Shown here piece after piece: positions 7,625 through 27,774 of a DNA stretch of 34,468 nucleotides. Origin of the DNA: Actinomycetota bacterium (GTDB lineage Bacteria > Actinomycetota > Acidimicrobiia > Acidimicrobiales > Ilumatobacteraceae). Each line of letters opens with the position of its first letter. Position 1 is the stretch's first letter. The translations under genes and the position numbers were made by a program. The notes below the pieces were generated by a model. It was not told the DNA's origin and ran no database searches. It saw nothing but the letters and a program-made list of their open reading frames with translations. The stretch lies in contig WLST01000011.1 of the NCBI GenBank assembly GCA_009711295.1, forward strand, positions 1 to 34,468, given 5' to 3'.

Positions 7625-8041
7625 GTGGCAAATAATGAAGGTCGCAACTCATGGGTCAATGGTGCATGGAATGCTTCCGATATTGCCAGTGCCCAAACCC
7701 ATTTGGCCCCCTTCATCGATGAATTGCGCGGTCAAGCAAGCAGCACGGCACCAGGTCGTACGACACACCTCATTGAACTACAAGTTGCTCAATTGCTGGG
7801 CTTAGAGCGCGCAGAGAGTGTTTTAGGCGAAGCAATGAAGAACTGGTACTCATCTTCGGAATTCTCCGATGGAGAAAAAGCCATTTTGGAAATTGCTGAA
7901 CAGTTTGTCCTCGATGTGCACAGCGTGACCGACGAGCAATTTGAGAAGTTGAGAAAGTATTTTTCTACTCCCGATATTTTGGCAATGTTGTTTCACATTG
8001 CGCTGTGTGATGGCTTTGGAAAACTGGAAAAGGTGGCCTGA
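7625..8041 (+). CDS. AhpD/carboxymuconolactone-decarboxylase-like protein lacking the redox cysteines
   Basis: 138 residues, GTG start fixed by the leaderless -10 motif. All-helical and AhpD-like: THLIELQVAQLLGLERAES occupies the place of the redox helix but has no CxxC. The C-terminal half (FSDGEKAILEIAEQFVLDV ... MLFHIALCDGFGKLEKV) aligns by eye with the C-terminal half of the next gene (RSKLALAFADAFLG ... GIGLALFHGFSKLLIV), so the two look like ancient tandem paralogues. The only cysteine is near residue 128. Its stop overlaps the next ATG by one base, so the proteins are probably made together and may form a mixed oligomer. Catalytic activity on its own is doubtful. Confidence 0.82.
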   Translation: MANNEGRNSWVNGAWNASDIASAQTHLAPFIDELRGQASSTAPGRTTHLIELQVAQLLGLERAESVLGEAMKNWYSSSEFSDGEKAILEIAEQFVLDVHSVTDEQFEKLRKYFSTPDILAMLFHIALCDGFGKLEKVA

Positions 8042-8556
8042 TGTCGAGTACTCCACGCCTCGACCCCGTCGACCCAACAGCGCGTTCGGTATTTGGCTCT
8101 ATTCTCGGGCACCAACCGCAACTCGCCAAAGCGTTCTCCACTTTGTATGCCGAATTTTGGCAACGAGGTGCACTCGACCACATCACTAAAGAAACCACAC
8201 GTTTACGCAATGCCCGCATTACCGATTGTGGCTATTGACGCAATGTTCGCTTCACGGTCGTGAAGCAAGAAAACATGGTGGAAGATGACGTTCAGAAGGT
8301 TGACGACGACTACAACGAAACCGACCTTCCACAACGCTCAAAACTTGCCTTAGCTTTCGCCGATGCATTTCTTGGTGCACAAGGTGCTCCGAGTATTGAT
8401 GTGCAAGATGAGATGAAAAAAGAGTTCACGACAGAACAAATTGCTGAAATGGGTATTGGCTTGGCGCTCTTTCATGGCTTTAGCAAGTTGCTCATTGTGA
8501 CGGGCTGCGAGCCAGAAGAAATGGAACGCACCGTGTTGAGTGCGCCAGGCGCATAG
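8041..8556 (+). CDS. AhpD-like selenoprotein: in-frame TGA at 8236-8238 read as selenocysteine
   Basis: A single reading frame of 172 codons is interrupted only by TGA at codon 66. Upstream it reads TRLRNARITDCGY and downstream RNVRFTVVKQENMVEDD, giving C63-G-Y-U66-R-N. The stop falls exactly where AhpD-like and carboxymuconolactone-decarboxylase-like proteins carry the second cysteine of the redox CxxC. Ten bases after the TGA is a perfect 7-bp hairpin with a GGTC loop, as expected of a bacterial SECIS element. AhpD-like proteins with CxxU are a known selenoprotein family. The predicted 171-residue product would be a thiol/selenol oxidoreductase or peroxidase. It is translationally coupled to the Cys-less paralogue. 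The alternative, a nonsense mutation making a pseudogene, is less likely because frame and family similarity continue to the end. selA, selB, selC and selD are not in the window. Confidence 0.85.
8239..8266 (+). promoter_or_regulatory. Bacterial SECIS-like hairpin downstream of the UGA codon
   Basis: GCTTCAC (8249-8255), loop GGTC (8256-8259), GTGAAGC (8260-8266): a perfect 7-bp stem inside the coding sequence. The loop begins 17 bases after the TGA. SelB-recognised bacterial SECIS hairpins have a guanine in a small apical loop roughly 16-37 bases after UGA, and the E. coli fdhF loop also contains GGUC. The spacing and loop therefore fit well. Confidence 0.8.
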
Positions 8557-8560
8557 AGTT

Positions 8561-9154
8561 TTACCAGCCGTTGTAGTGAACAACCTCAGACACATCTTTG
8601 CGCGACACAGGACCTTCGGGGCCGTCGGGGTAGCCAAGAGGAATCGTGGTGCCGATGTACATTTCATCGGGAATATTCAAGATGGTGCGAATTTGTGCTT
8701 CCACCATTCCGTGCAACGTGGTGAAGGCTGCGCCCAAACCCAGTGCGCGTGCAGCAACAATAAGGTTTTGGCTTGCGGCGTATACGGCTGAATACATGAA
8801 CGGTTCACGTGGGTTGTCGGCAGGGTAAATGTTGCGACCACAAACAAAAATGATGCATGGGAAATTTCCCATGTTGGCGCCAAGATTCTGCGCGCCTTTT
8901 AATGTGCGTCGATCGGTATCGTTGCCGGGGTCGGGAAACTTAGAAACTCGTTCGGCAAATGGCAAAAAGAGTGCGCCGAGTTGCTTGCGAACTTCGGGGT
9001 CGGTGACCACAATGAAATCCCAGCCCTGTGTATTGTTTGGGCTGCTGGCGCGGGTGGCGGCCCACAACACCTTTTCTATGAGTTCACTCGGCACGGGGTC
9101 GGGCTTGAAAAAGCGCATTGCACGAGCGGTGTTCATTGCATCGAAGACGTCCAT
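8561..9154 (-). CDS. Nitroreductase-family FMN oxidoreductase
   Basis: 197 residues. The start at 9154 (MDVFDAMNTARAMRFFKPDPVP) is chosen because the nitroreductase fold begins there; upstream residues in the frame are not family-like and overlap the divergent gene. Features are the FMN-phosphate contact RAMRFF, the WAATRASSPNNTQGWDFIVV segment, and the C-terminal GLGAAFTTLHGM and PLGYPDGPEGPVSRKDVSEVV, where the late basic residues usually contact FMN. Such proteins transfer two electrons from NAD(P)H to nitro, quinone or enone substrates; the substrate here is unknown. It is convergent with the selenoprotein gene (four bases apart) and divergent from the NMN adenylyltransferase-like gene (30 bases). 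Confidence 0.9.
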   Translation of the reverse strand: MDVFDAMNTARAMRFFKPDPVPSELIEKVLWAATRASSPNNTQGWDFIVVTDPEVRKQLGALFLPFAERVSKFPDPGNDTDRRTLKGAQNLGANMGNFPCIIFVCGRNIYPADNPREPFMYSAVYAASQNLIVAARALGLGAAFTTLHGMVEAQIRTILNIPDEMYIGTTIPLGYPDGPEGPVSRKDVSEVVHYNGW

Positions 9155-9184
9155 GTGCTCTATCGTTTCAAGTGGAGCACACCT

Positions 9185-9694
9185 ATGACGTATCGGACCG
9201 ACCAACCCCGCGAACATTTCTCCACTGGGCTCATTGTGGGTCGTTTTCACCCTCCGCATTTAGGGCATTCATGGTTCATTAATGCCGCTGCAGATCAGTG
9301 CGATGCGTTGGTGGTTTTCGTCAACACTCGTGCAGGTGAACTGGTACCTGGCTCTTTACGCGCAGGCTGGCTTGCCGAATTGCACGCGAATGTCACCGTG
9401 GTAGAAGTTGCTCACGAACTCGATACCAACTGGAACGACAATGAACTGTGGGCGAAATGGATTGCGTTGTTCCGTAGCAAGTGGCCCCACAACACCGGCC
9501 CTCACGCAGTGTTTTCATCTGACTCATATGTTGCAGAGCTTGCTCGTCGCCTAGAAGCTCAAGCAGTAGTGGTTGATGAAGATCGCATCAATGTTCCTAT
9601 TAGTGCGACCCAAATACGCGAAACACCCCAGCAGTATCTCCACTTCCTTGCGCCGCAAGTGCGCGAGTGGGTAGAGAAAAACTTGCTGGGGTGA
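9185..9694 (+). CDS. Nicotinamide-nucleotide adenylyltransferase-like nucleotidyltransferase (NadM/NadR type)
   Basis: 169 residues. The nucleotidyltransferase motif GRFHPPHLGH (about residues 20-29) and the C-terminal ISATQIRETP motif (ISxTxxR) are both present, defining a cytidylyltransferase-like fold that joins NMN with ATP to make NAD. The architecture is closest to the NadM/NadR branch rather than the NadD branch, because of the FHPPHLGH and ISATQIR spelling and short length; there is no attached kinase domain. ATG 9185 is the last start before the conserved core. It is convergent with the peroxiredoxin gene, 11 bases away. Confidence 0.85.
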   Translation: MTYRTDQPREHFSTGLIVGRFHPPHLGHSWFINAAADQCDALVVFVNTRAGELVPGSLRAGWLAELHANVTVVEVAHELDTNWNDNELWAKWIALFRSKWPHNTGPHAVFSSDSYVAELARRLEAQAVVVDEDRINVPISATQIRETPQQYLHFLAPQVREWVEKNLLG

Positions 9695-9705: not shown

Positions 9706-10341
9706 TTACTTCTTAGGTTGTGGCAAAACGCGCAAGTAAGGCTTGACGGTTGTCCAACCTTGTGGGAAAAGCGTCTTTGCCTCATCGTCAGACACAGCTG
9801 CACCGATGATGACGTCGCCGCCATCTTTCCAGTTGGCAGGTGTGGCCACTTTGAACTGTGCTGTCAATTGCAATGAATCGATGACGCGAAGCACTTCATC
9901 GAAGTTGCGACCGGTTGATGCTGGGTAAGTGATTGTGAGCTTCACCTTTTTGTCCGGTCCAATAACGAATACTGAACGCACGGTCATGGTGTCGCTTGCA
10001 TTGGGGTGAATCATGTCGTAGAGGTCGCTGACCTTGCGGTCTGGGTCACCGATCATGGGGAAGTTCACTGGTGTTCCTTGTGTTTCGCCAATGTCGCCTT
10101 CCCACTTCAAGTGCGACTCAACATTGTCGACCGACAAACCAATTACTTTCACATTGCGCTTGTCGAACTCAGGTTTGATTTTTGCTACGTAGCCAAGCTC
10201 TGTAGTGCACACTGGTGTGAAGTCTTTTGGGTGACTAAAAAGTACGCCCCACGAAGTGCCAAGCCATTCATGAAAGTTGATGGTGCCTTGTGTGGTTTCT
10301 GCGGTGAAGTCGGGGGCGGTATCGCCGAGTCGAAGTGCCAT
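9706..10341 (-). CDS. Peroxiredoxin, Prx6/1-Cys type
   Basis: 211 residues of the AhpC-TSA/1-Cys Prx family, which reduces peroxides using a single peroxidatic cysteine. The active-site motif PKDFTPVCTTELG places Cys45 with Pro38 and Thr42 in the conserved PxxxTxxC pattern. The long C-terminal domain (DEVLRVIDSLQLT to the end, about 60 residues) is the Prx6-type extension; no second conserved cysteine is seen. A strong ribosome site, AAGGAG, lies 7 bases before the ATG. A palindrome at 10396-10422 shares core and spacing with the metY operator, which suggests co-regulation with sulfur assimilation. The CstR-like regulator lies immediately upstream on the same strand. Confidence 0.95.
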   Translation of the reverse strand: MALRLGDTAPDFTAETTQGTINFHEWLGTSWGVLFSHPKDFTPVCTTELGYVAKIKPEFDKRNVKVIGLSVDNVESHLKWEGDIGETQGTPVNFPMIGDPDRKVSDLYDMIHPNASDTMTVRSVFVIGPDKKVKLTITYPASTGRNFDEVLRVIDSLQLTAQFKVATPANWKDGGDVIIGAAVSDDEAKTLFPQGWTTVKPYLRVLPQPKK

Positions 10342-10430: not shown

Positions 10431-10700
10431 CTAAGCCAATTTCACAAACATTTTTTGTACGTCTTCGATGGAGTAGCCCTCTTTTTTTGACTGCTCTGGG
10501 TTCGATACACACCACGTGAGACCAGCTGCCACCAAGTGAAAACCTACCTGTTCCAAGGCTTTGTGGGCGGCGGAGATTTGAGTAACCACGTCGCGGCAAT
10601 CGCGTTCTTCGCTCAGCATTTGTTGAATACCACGAATTTGGCCTTCGACGCGGCGCAGTCGTTTTTGCAGATCATCGGTGGTTTCGGCGGGTATTTGCAT
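10431..10700 (-). CDS. CsoR-family repressor, CstR-like (probable persulfide sensor)
   Basis: 89 residues, DUF156/CsoR fold: DLQKRLRRVEGQIRGIQQML is the conserved N-terminal DNA-contact helix. Copper-sensing CsoR uses Cys-His-Cys, with the histidine four residues before the second cysteine. Here the two cysteines, Cys35 and Cys64, are present with the family spacing of 29, but the histidine position is Gly60. Loss of that histidine with retention of both cysteines is the pattern of CstR, which senses persulfides and reactive sulfur by forming inter-subunit sulfur bridges. The gene has a perfect operator 11 bases upstream, so it is autoregulated. Next on the strand is the peroxiredoxin gene. 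Calling it a sulfur rather than metal sensor is inference from these residues. Confidence 0.88.
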   Translation of the reverse strand: MQIPAETTDDLQKRLRRVEGQIRGIQQMLSEERDCRDVVTQISAAHKALEQVGFHLVAAGLTWCVSNPEQSKKEGYSIEDVQKMFVKLA

Positions 10701-20029: not shown

Positions 20030-21349
20030 CTATTTTGCCGCGAAGGTTACTGGCAGGTGCCAGCACGTATGAAGTTCTCCATAGCCACGTGACTTCAACA
20101 CGGGTTGTGCGCCGGGTGCCAGCTTCAAGTTGCTCGTTGCATCGAGAAGTGCGTGCGATGCAATTGTTGCTACATCGCGCGTGATGGCATAGAGCGATCG
20201 CGGCCGACCCACGGGAAGCGCGGGGAATTTCGATGGTGTGCCAAGTGCTGGTGTAATGCCTGCTGGCAAACCGTCGGCGCGGTATTGGCCGCGTGGTTCA
20301 CGTTGCACAAGGTCTTTACGCCCAACAATGAATTGGTCGGCATCGGCGAAAATTGTTTCGTCGCGGTTTGCGCCAGCTGCGGAACATATAACCAATGCGC
20401 CTTCGGGGATGAGTAACCCAAAGCGTTCTACTTCGCGCTTCGCGAATCGCTCGCCGCTTAAGACCGGAGTGGAGTGACGCAAAGTTTCGAGGTATGCGTA
20501 TTTCACTAAACGCCTCGTGTTGTTGACCATGTTGAGTTGTTCAGGATGCGTCAGCAATAAAAACCACATGTTGGCAAGTGCGCCATGAAGTGTTTCGTGA
20601 TCGCCTTCGAGCAGCGTTGCAACAACGTCGTGGGCGTCAATTGCGGGTCCGTCTATTTCCAAAGTGGCAAGCGTTGACAAAACATCGTCTTGTGGGTCGG
20701 CGCGACGTGCGGCAAGCAGTGGCGTGAAGTAGCTAACGAGTTGCAGCATTGCTTGTTTGCCGGCTTCTTGGTTTGCTGTGTTCCATCTAAAACCGCGGTG
20801 CATTCGTAGGTAACGTTCGGCGAATACAGGAAGATCTGCATCGGGGATGCCCCATGTGCGACCAAGTAGCTGCAACGGAAATACGGCAGCAAATTCGGTA
20901 GCAAGGTCTGCTGTTCCGCGCTTTGCGAACGCTTCAACTATTTCGCTCGCAACAACAGGTGCGTGTTTGTCGATACCGGCAGCTTGCGCGGTGAGGAAGG
21001 GAACGTTGTTGCGTAGGTCGCGTCCAAAAGTAGCAAGACCATAAAACCAACGCTTTGAACGAGTTGCAAAGTTTGCGCTGTCTACAAGTACTGAAGTGAC
21101 GTCGTTGTAGTGAGTAATCCAAAATGCATTGCCCTGCCAGTCGCGAAACGATGGCCCGTAGTTGCGAAGGCTCGCAAGAAGCGTGTAGGGGTCGTCAAGA
21201 TAATCTTGCGTGCGTAATTGCCCAGGTTTAACTGGCGGCGGTGAACCAACACGTTCACGTTGGTAGACCTCGTAACTGCGGTAACCAGCTTCGTCGTCAC
21301 CGGCTGCGGCTTCGTGCTCAACGGTGGGTGAGCCATAGTCAGCCGACAT
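20030..21349 (-). CDS. Cytochrome P450-like protein lacking the heme-cysteine motif
   Basis: 439 residues, a P450 fold by similarity to its neighbour. ALANMWFLLLTHPEQ matches the helix after the I-helix of the canonical gene, LLEGDHETLHG is the I-helix region (GxxET kept, but the acid-alcohol pattern changed), and YLETLRHS gives ExxR. Where the neighbour has FGVGPHLCPG, this protein has a segment ending SKFPALPVGRPRSLYAITRD, with no cysteine, so there is no thiolate ligand for heme. The reading frame is intact to the C-terminus, so this is divergence, not a frameshift. It abuts the canonical P450 gene (TAA followed directly by ATG). It may be a partner or scaffold of that P450, or an enzyme using another cofactor. 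Confidence 0.85.
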   Translation of the reverse strand: MSADYGSPTVEHEAAAGDDEAGYRSYEVYQRERVGSPPPVKPGQLRTQDYLDDPYTLLASLRNYGPSFRDWQGNAFWITHYNDVTSVLVDSANFATRSKRWFYGLATFGRDLRNNVPFLTAQAAGIDKHAPVVASEIVEAFAKRGTADLATEFAAVFPLQLLGRTWGIPDADLPVFAERYLRMHRGFRWNTANQEAGKQAMLQLVSYFTPLLAARRADPQDDVLSTLATLEIDGPAIDAHDVVATLLEGDHETLHGALANMWFLLLTHPEQLNMVNNTRRLVKYAYLETLRHSTPVLSGERFAKREVERFGLLIPEGALVICSAAGANRDETIFADADQFIVGRKDLVQREPRGQYRADGLPAGITPALGTPSKFPALPVGRPRSLYAITRDVATIASHALLDATSNLKLAPGAQPVLKSRGYGELHTCWHLPVTFAAK

Positions 21350-22792
21350 TTACATCGCCTCAAATTCAAGCCAGAGTTCGTTAATGGCACCCAAGCCAAT
21401 GGGGGCAAGTGAAACCCCATCGATATCTTTGGCCATGCGCTCGGTGGCAATACGTACGTTTTTAATGCGCTTCGACATGATGCTTGAACCAATGCTGCCT
21501 TCTTGATGCGAGATCCATGCTCCTGGGCACAGGTGCGGCCCCACACCAAAGGCCATGTGGTTAGTGCGTCCATCTTTTTTGTAGCCCGAGCGAAGAATCT
21601 TTTCGCTGTAGAGGTCGTTGCGCAAAATGTCGAACTTCTCTGGGTCGGTAAAGATGCGCTCGTCGTGGTTGGCGGAAAAGTCGACCATATGCATGAGCGA
21701 ACCAGCAGGAACCTTGACGCCTTGTAGTTCAACATCGAAGGTGTTCTGGCGTGGTTGCCCACCAATAGAAGATGAGTGTCGCAATGTCTCGTGGAATGCT
21801 GCGTCCCACAACGGGTCGTTGTTGAGAACGGCTTCCATTTGGTCGGGGTGCTGCAATAACAGGTACCACATATTCAAAATGGCACCGCGTGTGGTTTCAC
21901 CGCCGCCACCAACAATGAGTGCAATGTTTGAAGTGATTTCTTCAGTGGAAAGCACGTCACCATCGACAATTGTTTTGCACAGTTCAGAAATGATGTCTGG
22001 TGCAACTTCGTTGCCTTCATCGTCAAGCAAGAAGTTCGGCTTCAACCGGCGCTCTTCAACGATGCTCTCGACAAAATCTTCAAGATCTTGGCGAGCCATG
22101 AGGCCTTTTTGCTCATAGTCGCGGCCACCAATGCCGCCCATCATGTACTTGTACCAGTAGTAAAACTTGTCGCGAGCTTCGTCGGGAAAGCCAAGTACTT
22201 GACACACCACGCGAATGGGGAACTCGTTCGCAAATGCCTTGCCGAGTTCCATTGTGTACTTGCCAGTTGCTGGGTCGTACTCGGTCATGCCCGATTCGGG
22301 GTTAAACCACTCGTCGATCATTTCATTGGCAAGTTTGCAAATTGCGCCAATGCGTTTGGTGAGCGCGGCACCTACTAGGTGACGACCATAAAGGTTACGA
22401 CGTCGGCTGTGTTCAATTCCGCTGAGCTCGAGTTGCGTGTTTCCCAAAACATGGTTTGAGCTGCCTTTAGGAATGGTGTTGTAGCCAAGACCATCGAAAT
22501 AGCACTCGGCGATGTCGTTATAGCGCGTGACGAAATAGCAGTTGTGTAATTTGTCGTGGTACACGGGGTAGTGGTCGCGCAAGATGCGGTAGTACGGATA
22601 AGGGTTGCGTTGGAATTCGCGTGAGTCGAAAATACGTGGGTCGAAGAGGGGAACGCCATTTGCATCGCGACCCATGTCGTAGGCAGTACCCAACGGCATG
22701 AGTGGAAAGTCAAACGTTTGGGTTGATGCGGTATCGGCATCTACCTCATATGCGGCGGCAACTGTTTTGCGGAGATCTTCAGCAAGTGACAT
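21350..22792 (-). CDS. Cytochrome P450
   Basis: 480 residues. It has all P450 hallmarks: I-helix IVGGGGETTRG, ExxR in HETLRHS, and the heme-binding loop FGVGPHLCPG with Cys422 as thiolate ligand. It is soluble (no N-terminal anchor), as in bacterial class I P450s that take electrons from ferredoxin; no ferredoxin gene is in the window. ATG 22792 is chosen because AAAGGA precedes it by six bases and the protein aligns from there; the open frame continues upstream through the divergent SDR gene by chance. It heads an operon with the heme-motif-less paralogue and DUF167. Substrate unknown; the context suggests a hydrophobic carbon source. Confidence 0.95.
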   Translation of the reverse strand: MSLAEDLRKTVAAAYEVDADTASTQTFDFPLMPLGTAYDMGRDANGVPLFDPRIFDSREFQRNPYPYYRILRDHYPVYHDKLHNCYFVTRYNDIAECYFDGLGYNTIPKGSSNHVLGNTQLELSGIEHSRRRNLYGRHLVGAALTKRIGAICKLANEMIDEWFNPESGMTEYDPATGKYTMELGKAFANEFPIRVVCQVLGFPDEARDKFYYWYKYMMGGIGGRDYEQKGLMARQDLEDFVESIVEERRLKPNFLLDDEGNEVAPDIISELCKTIVDGDVLSTEEITSNIALIVGGGGETTRGAILNMWYLLLQHPDQMEAVLNNDPLWDAAFHETLRHSSSIGGQPRQNTFDVELQGVKVPAGSLMHMVDFSANHDERIFTDPEKFDILRNDLYSEKILRSGYKKDGRTNHMAFGVGPHLCPGAWISHQEGSIGSSIMSKRIKNVRIATERMAKDIDGVSLAPIGLGAINELWLEFEAM

Positions 22793-22882
22793 CGGTAGTC
22801 CTTTGTGAGAAAGGTTGGTATGCCAAACCTCTTGACATAGTGCAACTATACGTCGGCTGAACAATGCTTCTTCTAGGCGGAC

Positions 22883-22888
22883 TATGGT
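22883..22888 (+). promoter_or_regulatory. -10 hexamer TATGGT of the SDR gene at 22896
   Basis: TATGGT is followed by CGGGCTT and ATG 22896. The first ATG of this frame (22884) lies within the hexamer, so the leaderless model favours 22896 as the start. Confidence 0.45.
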
Positions 22889-22895
22889 CGGGCTT

Positions 22896-23753
22896 ATGAA
22901 CGCATCATTAAAAGGACGCCGGGCACTCGTGACCGGGGCAGCAGATGGACTCGGAAAAGCATTCGCATTGGCATTGGCCCACGCCGGGGCCGACGTAGCA
23001 GTGTGCGATATCAACAGTTCGGTCAGTGCTGTTGCTGATGAATTAAAAGCTGCCGGCGTCAAGTCGTATAGCGCAGTTGCCGACGTTGCCAATGAGAAGC
23101 AGATTAAAAAGTTTGTAGACGATGCAGCAATAGCGTTGGGTGGTCTCGACTTGGTCATCAGCAATGCGGGCGTTGTGCGCATAACGGCACCAACAAAAGA
23201 TTCATGGGAAAAAACAGTTGACGACTTCGATGCGGTCATTGGCGTGAACTATCGCGGCGTGTACCTCACTGGCCGCGCGGCAATTCCACATCTCATCAAA
23301 CAAGGTGGTGACCTCATCAACATCACCACCGATCACATTCATAACTGCGGATATCCAGTCATCACCCACGACCACACCGACGATTGCAAATGGAAAGACA
23401 TGCAGCGTTCGCCAGTTGGGGGCAACGGCTTCGATGTCTATGACTCATCGAAGTGGGCAATTAAAGGTCTCACCAATACATGGGCGCGCGGTCTTGCCGA
23501 ACATGGCGTGCGCGTGAACTCATTTGGTATGGGTGCTACTGCTACTCCGATGTATTTAGGTTTTGTTGGCGACAAGCCAACTCCTGCTGGAACAATGATG
23601 CCGGCCGATGTGGCCGCAGTTGTTGTGGAACTCATCAATGAAGGTCCGCAGGGTCGCACGGGAGACTGCATCCAAGTATGGGCTGGTCATCCCACGTTCT
23701 TGCGACCAGTTGGTCTTGAAGGGCTCCTCACTGCACGTGACCTCGGTAGGTAG
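22896..23753 (+). CDS. SDR-family oxidoreductase with a His/Cys/Asp-rich insertion
   Basis: 285 residues. Cofactor motif TGAADGLG (13-20), SNAG (89-92), Tyr182 and Lys186 in YDSSK. In classical SDRs the catalytic serine is about 13 residues before the tyrosine. Here the equivalent INITTD has Thr144/Thr145 and lies some 37 residues away, because an insertion of roughly 25 residues intervenes with His147, His149, Cys151, His158, His160, Asp162, Asp163 and Cys164. That cluster could bind a metal. The 3' end overlaps the next gene start by one base. It belongs to a three-gene run (SDR, PPOX, SDR) reading rightward, divergent from the P450 operon. Confidence 0.88.
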   Translation: MNASLKGRRALVTGAADGLGKAFALALAHAGADVAVCDINSSVSAVADELKAAGVKSYSAVADVANEKQIKKFVDDAAIALGGLDLVISNAGVVRITAPTKDSWEKTVDDFDAVIGVNYRGVYLTGRAAIPHLIKQGGDLINITTDHIHNCGYPVITHDHTDDCKWKDMQRSPVGGNGFDVYDSSKWAIKGLTNTWARGLAEHGVRVNSFGMGATATPMYLGFVGDKPTPAGTMMPADVAAVVVELINEGPQGRTGDCIQVWAGHPTFLRPVGLEGLLTARDLGR

Positions 23754-26323: not shown

Positions 26324-26364
26324 GCCAAGGTTTCTGCGCCTCTCGGGCCACTTGACGCATGCGT

Positions 26365-26370
26365 TACCCT
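26365..26370 (+). promoter_or_regulatory. -10 hexamer TACCCT of the Rieske oxygenase gene
   Basis: TACCCT is followed by GTCCAT and the ATG at 26377. This supports 26377 over the in-frame ATG at 26359. Confidence 0.5.
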
Positions 26371-26376
26371 GTCCAT

Positions 26377-27774
26377 ATGGAGCAATCACTGCCAGACCCC
26401 AATGTTGCCTTCGGCGATCATCGTTGCCCAGGCCCGAGCTATCGCGACCTCGTGTTGCGCGATGAAACCGGTGTTCCCGCGCAGATGCTGGAAAGTGAAT
26501 ACCGCTACCGCGGCAGTGAGCCCATTGGCTACCACCGCTACACCTCGAAAGAATTTGCGGAACTCGAATTCGAAAAGGTTTTCATGCGTGCATGGCAATG
26601 GGCCTGCCGCGAAGAACACATTCCCAACGAAGGTGACTACCACGTATACGACGTTGGTCAACGTTCCATCATTCTCGTGCGTGACCCGCAAGGAAAAATT
26701 CGTGCATTCAATAACTTCTGTTTGCATCGCGGAACTCAGCTCAAACCATCGGGCGACCAAGGCAATGCAAACCGCTTTACGTGCCCGTACCACGGGTGGG
26801 CGTGGTCGACAACAGGAAAAATTGCTTCGTTGCCTTGCCGGTGGGACTTCCCGCACTTGTCTGACGACGACCTCGAGATGCCTGAAATTCAAGTCGACAC
26901 TTGGGGCGGATTCGTATTTGTGAACTTCGATCCAACGGCTGGCCCGCTACGCGATTACCTCGGTGTCTTGCCTGAACATTTTCAAGGTGCTTGGGATCTC
27001 TCGAAGCGCTATGTGGAACTACACATCAAAAAGCGTTTGCCGTGCAACTGGAAAGCAGGCATGGCTGCATTCCTCGAGGCATACCACGTGTACAAAACGC
27101 ATCCACAAGGTCTGCGTGCTACAGGCGATGCCAACGCGCAATACGACGTATTTGGCGAACATATTTCGCGCTTCATGCACACATCCGGAACGCAGAGTCC
27201 GCATATTGCCAACCAACAAACAGAACAGGAAATTTTAGATTTCTTGTTGGGTCGCAAATTCAGCCCAGGCATGGAAACGCCAAAAATTCCTGAAGGCAAA
27301 ACCGCACGCGACGTATACGCACAACTCTCCAAGGTGCAGCTAGGCGAGAAGTACGGAGCCGATTATTCCGACTTCAAGGTCGCCGACACCGTTGACTCCA
27401 TTGAATATTTCGTCTTCCCGAACGGGTTCTTTTTCCCAGGAGCTCGAATTCCACTCACGTACCGGTTCTTACCAAACCCCGATAATCCTGATGAGTGCAC
27501 ATTCGATTTATTGTTCTTGCGCCCACATCCTGCAGACGGAAATATTCCTGCACCTGCAAAAGTGTGTCATCTTGACTTTAAAGACAGCTATGCCAGTGCA
27601 CCGGGTATGGATCCTGGCCTTGGCGGAGTATTCGACCAAGACACCGACAACCTTGCCGCGCAAACACGTGGGTTTAAGGGAAGCATGCGCACGGCGGAAA
27701 CACTTGGCAACTACCAAGAAATTCGCACGCGTCACCTGCACGAAACCATCGACAAATACATGGCGCGGCCTTAA
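26377..27774 (+). CDS. Rieske non-heme iron oxygenase, alpha subunit
   Basis: 465 residues. The Rieske [2Fe-2S] motif is C115-x-H117 ... C136-x2-H139 (CLHRG and CPYHGW). The mononuclear-iron motif follows near NWKAGMAAFLEAYHVYKTH, with Glu234, His237 and His242 (E-x2-H-x4-H; an Asp is more usual in the first position). It should insert oxygen into or demethylate an aromatic or alicyclic substrate, with electrons from a reductase that is not in the window. The VOC-fold gene five bases downstream is probably in the same transcript. Its neighbours (P450, SDRs) fit a shared oxidative pathway. Confidence 0.93.
   Translation: MEQSLPDPNVAFGDHRCPGPSYRDLVLRDETGVPAQMLESEYRYRGSEPIGYHRYTSKEFAELEFEKVFMRAWQWACREEHIPNEGDYHVYDVGQRSIILVRDPQGKIRAFNNFCLHRGTQLKPSGDQGNANRFTCPYHGWAWSTTGKIASLPCRWDFPHLSDDDLEMPEIQVDTWGGFVFVNFDPTAGPLRDYLGVLPEHFQGAWDLSKRYVELHIKKRLPCNWKAGMAAFLEAYHVYKTHPQGLRATGDANAQYDVFGEHISRFMHTSGTQSPHIANQQTEQEILDFLLGRKFSPGMETPKIPEGKTARDVYAQLSKVQLGEKYGADYSDFKVADTVDSIEYFVFPNGFFFPGARIPLTYRFLPNPDNPDECTFDLLFLRPHPADGNIPAPAKVCHLDFKDSYASAPGMDPGLGGVFDQDTDNLAAQTRGFKGSMRTAETLGNYQEIRTRHLHETIDKYMARP

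Follow-up and report, generated by a model that had tools for sequence, protein, structure and literature searches.

The window, by which we mean the whole 34,468-nucleotide stretch of DNA analysed here, almost certainly encodes a selenoprotein of the AhpD-like (CMD) family, in which SelB and tRNA-Sec are predicted, from comparative evidence, to insert selenocysteine at the UGA at 8236-8238 under the direction of a hairpin at 8249-8266. The combined reading of selenoprotein, hairpin and upstream partner gene, leaving aside any electron-transfer step, is very likely correct. Taken alone, the selenoprotein is a new representative of a type of protein already known; what is new here, judging from the sequences compared, is its fixed pairing with a paralogue from which the active site has been deleted, and the link of this pair to a 1-Cys peroxiredoxin. 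The features concerned are the following.

7625-8041, plus strand: degenerate AhpD-like paralogue of 138 aa, without CxxC or CxxU (profile comparison, locus count)
8041-8556, plus strand: predicted AhpD-like (CMD family) selenoprotein gene with a CxxU active site (171 aa when TGA is translated as U)
8227-8229, plus strand: codon of Cys63, the likely resolving residue (present in all 25 aligned sequences)
8236-8238, plus strand: TGA, predicted to be read as Sec66, where CxxC has its second Cys (comparative alignment, Sec machinery)
8249-8266, plus strand: putative SECIS hairpin GCTTCAC-GGTC-GTGAAGC (7-bp stem, GGUC loop at 8256-8259, UGA-loop distance 17 nt)
8561-9259, minus strand: gene of the nitroreductase family, separating the pair from the peroxiredoxin (Pfam Nitroreductase)
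9706-10341, minus strand: 1-Cys Prx6-type peroxiredoxin, the proposed electron acceptor (Pfam AhpC-TSA and 1-cysPrx_C), convergent to the Sec gene

The frame from 8041 to 8556 comprises 171 residues and a stop codon, and its sole interruption is the TGA at 8236-8238, which lies within ITDCGY-U-RNVRF at the AhpD-type motif C63-G-Y-U66; in these respects the preliminary description of the locus was accurate. On its own, a lone TGA in a long frame would be unremarkable: of the 130 frames in the window that are bounded by TAA or TAG and run to 150 codons or more, 17 contain exactly one. With the standard code, the list of open reading frames shows just the downstream half of the gene (8260-8556, 98 aa), and gene calling is therefore likely to truncate or drop it, much as had been expected of standard gene finders. 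Within the genus, 9 of 12 further genomes have at least one TGA-interrupted match, either a close copy or a paralogue, so that genus-wide loss in gene calling would be systematic.

The preliminary description had reasoned that the lineage should possess the selenocysteine machinery, and selA, selB, selD and tRNA-Sec were all found in the window's own genome (1.87 Mb in 127 contigs, 79% complete). The tRNA-Sec scores 65.8 bits and has the anticodon TCA; SelB (288 bits), SelA (404.5 bits) and SelD (316.7 bits) each exceed their curated cut-offs, and selA adjoins selB on one contig.

We searched for relatives of the selenoprotein in 199 genomes, its own included, and obtained matches in 79. The 25 best matches reaching position 66 (L018-L042, with the window copy among them) made up the alignment set, while a 26th match, L043, is cut before this site and falls outside the count. 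Homologues had been expected to carry either Cys or Sec at position 66, and all 25 do so (window copy counted): the codon is TGA in 24 and TGC in one, the sole Cys form being L036 from genome G018. Among the 24 genomes whose copy has the TGA, 20 gave a tRNA-Sec match of at least 60 bits; none was found, despite a deeper scan, in G034, G050, G107 and G188, which are drafts of 80-97% completeness. Over the entire search set, tRNA-Sec passed the cut-off in 143 of 199 genomes, some hits reaching only 47-53 bits and perhaps representing other tRNAs, and G018, with its Cys form, also has one. Because tRNA-Sec is so widespread and is present in G018, we treat its co-occurrence with the TGA form as necessary, not specific, evidence.

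To judge from substitution rates, selection is purifying on both sides of the TGA. Among the four closest sequences, dN amounts to 0.014-0.024 upstream of the TGA and 0.014-0.057 downstream of it, with dS at 0.5-1.2; for more distant pairs, the downstream dN rises to as much as 0.33, with dS high or undefined. A phylum-wide search yielded matches at E ≤ 1e-15 in 24 of 396 genomes, own included; scores above 200 bits were confined to the window's genome and G023, the others being distant and mostly lacking the TGA. No relative was found in the plasmid collection. A search of contigs returned five named loci with the closest copies, mostly titled as actinobacterial metagenome assemblies. The record of locus L049 is titled Bifidobacterium breve, yet its protein is 92% identical to that of the window and its neighbourhood matches Acidimicrobiales assemblies; the name of this record is probably wrong. 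A second AhpD-like gene with a TGA was observed in the window's own genome (L057; contig C2, 300-659, minus strand). It is 33% identical to the first and has a degenerate partner of its own upstream (770-1180), as well as a SECIS-like hairpin with an AGTT loop and compensatory changes.

Ten bases past the TGA begins the perfect 7-bp hairpin with a GGTC loop that the preliminary description had pointed out, with 7 of 7 pairs formed at 8249-8266. Its suggested identity as a bacterial SECIS was upheld when its values, a 4-nt loop, 7 bp, a distance of 17 nt and -12.9 kcal/mol for a 42-nt stretch, were compared by hand with the published bSECIS constraints as given in a figure legend of PMC13188914, with which they agree. 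All seven pairs recur in the same register in 21 of 27 TGA sequences. Six of the 27 (L037-L040, L042 and L047) fold differently, without a GGUC-type hairpin in that register, and no such hairpin occurs in the three Cys homologues compared (L036, L044 and L045). Hairpin energy alone is weak evidence, being unremarkable in most sequences: the stability of the window stretch was equalled by 13 of 400 synonymous recodings, and among 26 TGA sequences put through this energy test only 6 reach 20 or fewer of 400.

Covariation was counted in two sets of sequences, one consisting of the 21 of 27 that were picked for the shared hairpin (15 of them distinct) and the other of all 27 TGA sequences (21 distinct). 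In the 21-sequence set, 100% of cells are paired, compared with 32-56% when the pairing partner is slid; three pairs are changed on both sides, a number reached by 15 of 500 shuffles, and the covariation score was reached by 0 of 500. With all 27 sequences, 82.3% of cells are paired against 31-52% when slid, and none of the 500 shuffles run attained the covariation score. Doubly changed pairs in the full set were no better than in shuffles (151 of 500 as high), nor were further pair types in either set (432 of 500 as high for the 21 sequences and 92 of 500 for all 27). One compensatory change, from A-U to G-C, coincides with the replacement of Thr72 and Val74 by two Ala residues; here, therefore, RNA pairing and protein change together. 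Scanning the window with Rfam produced no hit above threshold, a result that we do not count against the hairpin.

That the TGA column is kept in 24 of 25 sequences and that the stem shows compensatory changes argues for a real signal and not chance. Were the TGA a genuine stop or a sequencing error, the locus would be a pseudogene, or would give rise to a 65-residue product followed by an unrelated downstream reading frame. The chance frequency of single TGAs in long frames here (17 of 130, as above) speaks for such an explanation, but we consider it extremely unlikely given that the same TGA recurs in 24 genomes of different species, own included, that purifying selection persists past it and that the hairpin covaries. 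Genome-wide reassignment of TGA, for example to Trp or Gly, in place of selenocysteine at a single site, is scarcely conceivable. A frame that stays open under another code does not exclude reassignment, but TGA terminates 2 of the 19 window genes checked, among them the partner gene directly before the Sec gene, the non-TGA relative L036 has Cys at the site, and the Sec machinery is present in the genome. Sequencing error, pseudogene and genome-wide recoding were thus rejected on the conserved TGA, selection, covariation and machinery.

Selenocysteine decoding being the preferred reading, we turn to the protein family. The window protein on its own falls just short of Pfam CMD (21.6 bits against a cut-off of 23). 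The 25-sequence profile matches the AhpD-like structures 7xw1, 2ijc and 2o4d (PA0269) at 5e-13 to 7e-13, and in the alignment CGYU lies on the CAYC of solved AhpD-like structures. Glu51, located 12 residues before the motif, Cys63 and Sec/Cys66 do not vary across the 25 sequences, and Arg70 is likewise found in all 25 where PA0269 has His, four residues past the second Cys. In mycobacterial AhpD, a Glu 12 residues before the CxxC has a role and a His four residues past the second Cys serves as a proton relay. The window protein remains below the cut-off of every NCBIfam model, scoring 14.9-23.4 bits against cut-offs of 81.8-310 for TIGR01926, NF053654, NF041238 and NF041047, and 17.2 bits against 27.8 for the general AhpD domain, TIGR00778. 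There is a likeness, in the form of weak matches, to NF053654 (YciW-related (seleno)protein), NF041047 (GSU3128), NF041238 (CFYUT) and TIGR01926, and of the aligned sequences 24 of 25 hit NF053654 with E ≤ 0.01, but by score the window protein is not a member of any of these four. Structure models of the Sec protein and the partner, made from five closely related rows each, have mean pLDDT values of 47.1 and 53.6, and with these low-confidence models Foldseek gave no meaningful fold match for either protein.

The locus had been put forward as a probable new AhpD-like selenoprotein. Novelty stands insofar as the protein is below every NCBIfam cut-off, but not as regards its type: CxxU selenoproteins that are AhpD-like or CMD-like were reported in 2005 from the Sargasso Sea (PMC1088965) and in 2008 from the GOS survey (PMC2398784), and AhpD-like selenoproteins are listed in reviews of 2022 and 2026 (PMC9312934, PMC13188914), according to the text available for each. 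The accessible portion of the GOS survey distinguishes AhpD-like 1 and 2, the latter corresponding to pfam02627 and being commoner in non-marine samples. It is possible that the window protein is GOS AhpD-like 2, the two being likened by description, not by sequence. With the Sargasso and GOS proteins, as described in the available parts of these reports, it shares the AhpD/CMD family, the CxxU motif and a bacterial SECIS past the TGA; it differs in its degenerate partner, of which those parts make no mention.

The preliminary description was confined to the Sec gene and overlooked both its degenerate partner and the peroxiredoxin close by. The stop codon of the partner gene overlaps the start of the Sec gene (TGATG). 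A partner homologue or fused domain was found in all 27 loci counted, namely the 25 aligned ones and the Cys forms L044 and L045. In 24 loci the partner is a separate gene immediately upstream on the same strand, its stop lying between 82 nt before and 16 nt past the Sec start, and in three fusions (L037, L039 and L040) the partner domain is at the C-terminus of the Sec domain. Three loci were left out of the count: L043, in which the Sec gene is cut by the contig end and the upstream reading frame is a partner; L046, which is at a contig edge and has a partial partner-like reading frame; and L047, with no clear partner among the reading frames listed. When the partner set was compared with the Sec family using hhalign, they aligned over 135 columns (Prob 98.5, E 1.9e-15; fusion sequences overlap by ~25 residues between the sets, outside the aligned part), and the CGYU active-site segment is missing from the partner. 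No CxxC is present in any of the 27 partners.

It is very unlikely that the upstream gene encodes an unrelated helical protein and overlaps the Sec gene by chance only. Such an explanation would suit the window copy taken alone, which has no Pfam match and for which the low-confidence predicted model gave no meaningful fold match, but it is opposed by the profile comparison just described and by the presence of the partner in 27 of 27 loci, with fusion in three. Furthermore, 5 of the 27 partners match Pfam CMD at E ≤ 0.01, and of the nine PDB entries matched by the partner profile, the top four are AhpD-like, albeit weak (E 0.005-0.05), the other five being unrelated (E 0.18-0.79). A degenerate AhpD-like paralogue is thus the preferred identity of the partner. 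We consider it likely, on gene arrangement and alignment, that translation of the Sec gene is coupled to that of the paralogue and that the two products would assemble into a mixed oligomer, with one catalytic subunit and one of structural or regulatory function. A literature search, which subscription journals and supplements largely escaped, revealed no AhpD pair with a degenerate partner apart from the fused dimers described in the available text of PMC11429811.

A large cyclase-AAA-TPR protein was observed near the pair in the two loci scanned (L077, 1441-5076; L079, 6437-9865), and related large regulator reading frames are near the pair in 7 of 19 neighbourhoods. In L077 this large reading frame overlaps the start of the partner gene, which suggests one operon.

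The window peroxiredoxin has a single Cys, Cys45, in HPKDFTPVC. The 11 homologues covering this position (10 of them full length) likewise carry Cys45 as the sole Cys of the part covered. His37 is found eight residues before the Cys and, by this spacing, is presumably equivalent to His39 of human PrxVI. The latter residue is named for the human enzyme in the portion of PMC12697902 available. A peroxiredoxin match was found in 34 of 38 genomes searched, with one each in 32. Of 18 same-family genomes (the window's own among them) whose TGA form reaches 42% identity or more, 16 have the peroxiredoxin linked to the Sec gene, convergent with it and 0.5-4.1 kb away; in the two unlinked cases, G029 and G047, the contig runs no further than about 1.4 kb downstream. 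Among seven more divergent genomes, including G194 (another family, 44% identity), the peroxiredoxin is unlinked or absent. Across 19 other neighbourhoods, the upstream ABC gene is kept in 8, FtsX in 6, the nitroreductase in 6 and both Fpg and the PNPOx-like gene in 5, the nitroreductase being less widely conserved than the peroxiredoxin; the ABC gene is also present in 3 of 5 further neighbourhoods.

Several other genes were observed in the window. A CsoR-type metal-sensitive repressor (Pfam Trns_repr_metal; 10431-10700, minus strand) adjoins the peroxiredoxin. Two adjacent cytochrome P450-family reading frames (20030-23239, minus strand) and a Rieske ring-hydroxylating oxygenase (26359-27774, plus strand) perhaps constitute a catabolic region.

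In the mechanism that we propose, Sec66 would replace the second Cys of the AhpD CxxC as the attacking residue, and Cys63, from its place in the alignment, would be the likely resolving thiol. The pair would most likely act in peroxide defence, either regenerating the neighbouring Prx6-type peroxiredoxin or reducing peroxides itself, and its electrons may come from a lipoyl protein, by analogy with mycobacterial AhpD. As described in the available text of PMC8945050, AhpD is reduced by lipoyl proteins and in turn reduces AhpC. For Prx6-type enzymes there is no agreed universal reductant, hydrosulfide having been proposed in 2025 (PMC12697902, available part).

That the neighbouring peroxiredoxin is the direct substrate of the pair is a tentative and rather doubtful step, marked down because the ABC gene too is often kept nearby. 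The protein may instead be a peroxidase itself, or a reductase for other substrates, with the linkage to the peroxiredoxin reflecting inherited gene order, and this we regard as somewhat favoured. The peroxiredoxin gene is convergent and hence not co-transcribed with the Sec gene; of 13 genomes searched that have no close copy of the pair, 10 contain a peroxiredoxin as well; conservation of gene order is broader, taking in the ABC, FtsX, nitroreductase, Fpg, PNPOx-like and large regulator genes; and possible direct peroxidase activity has been reported for AhpD in the accessible text of PMC8945050. Set against inherited order, only the partner and the peroxiredoxin, of all these neighbours, are present in all 12 linked neighbourhoods (of the 19 compared), and the divergent genome G026 has, directly upstream of the pair, a Redoxin-family gene interrupted in frame by a TGA. 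The G026 gene (L089, 4395) is of the Redoxin/AhpC family with a PYUGC motif and by that motif resembles the Prx-like selenoproteins with UGC described in the GOS survey. Returning to electron transfer to the peroxiredoxin, the stronger proposal that a Sec-containing, sestrin-like hetero-oligomer is the dedicated electron donor of the Prx6-type 1-Cys peroxiredoxin is unlikely, the frequent retention of the ABC gene weighing against it too. The locus would provide a specific candidate reductant for Prx6-type peroxiredoxins that is testable in vitro, and we consider the constant degenerate paralogue and the clade-limited link to a 1-Cys peroxiredoxin to be the more important aspect of these findings.

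In its proposed role the system resembles mycobacterial AhpD with AhpC, where AhpD reduces a peroxiredoxin (PMC8945050, in the text available). It differs from mycobacterial AhpD in having Sec for Cys, Arg for His past the motif and a degenerate partner, and from the mycobacterial system in that a 1-Cys Prx6-type peroxiredoxin takes the place of AhpC. Sestrins, according to PMC11429811, have an active AhpD-like domain together with an altered one, and the same paper describes bacterial fused AhpD dimers in which one domain has no cysteine. Membership of the Sestrin family was rejected, as Pfam returned CMD alone for the three fusions (E up to 1), with no Sestrin match; the comparison of layout was retained. 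Unlike sestrins, the proteins here are encoded by two genes in 24 of 27 loci and are predicted to have selenocysteine in the active half, and the two systems are likened by layout, not by structure. The three fusions place the catalytic domain before the degenerate one, in the same order as SESN-A and SESN-C in the available text of PMC11429811. The locus thus offers a bacterial parallel to the catalytic and degenerate domain layout of sestrins.
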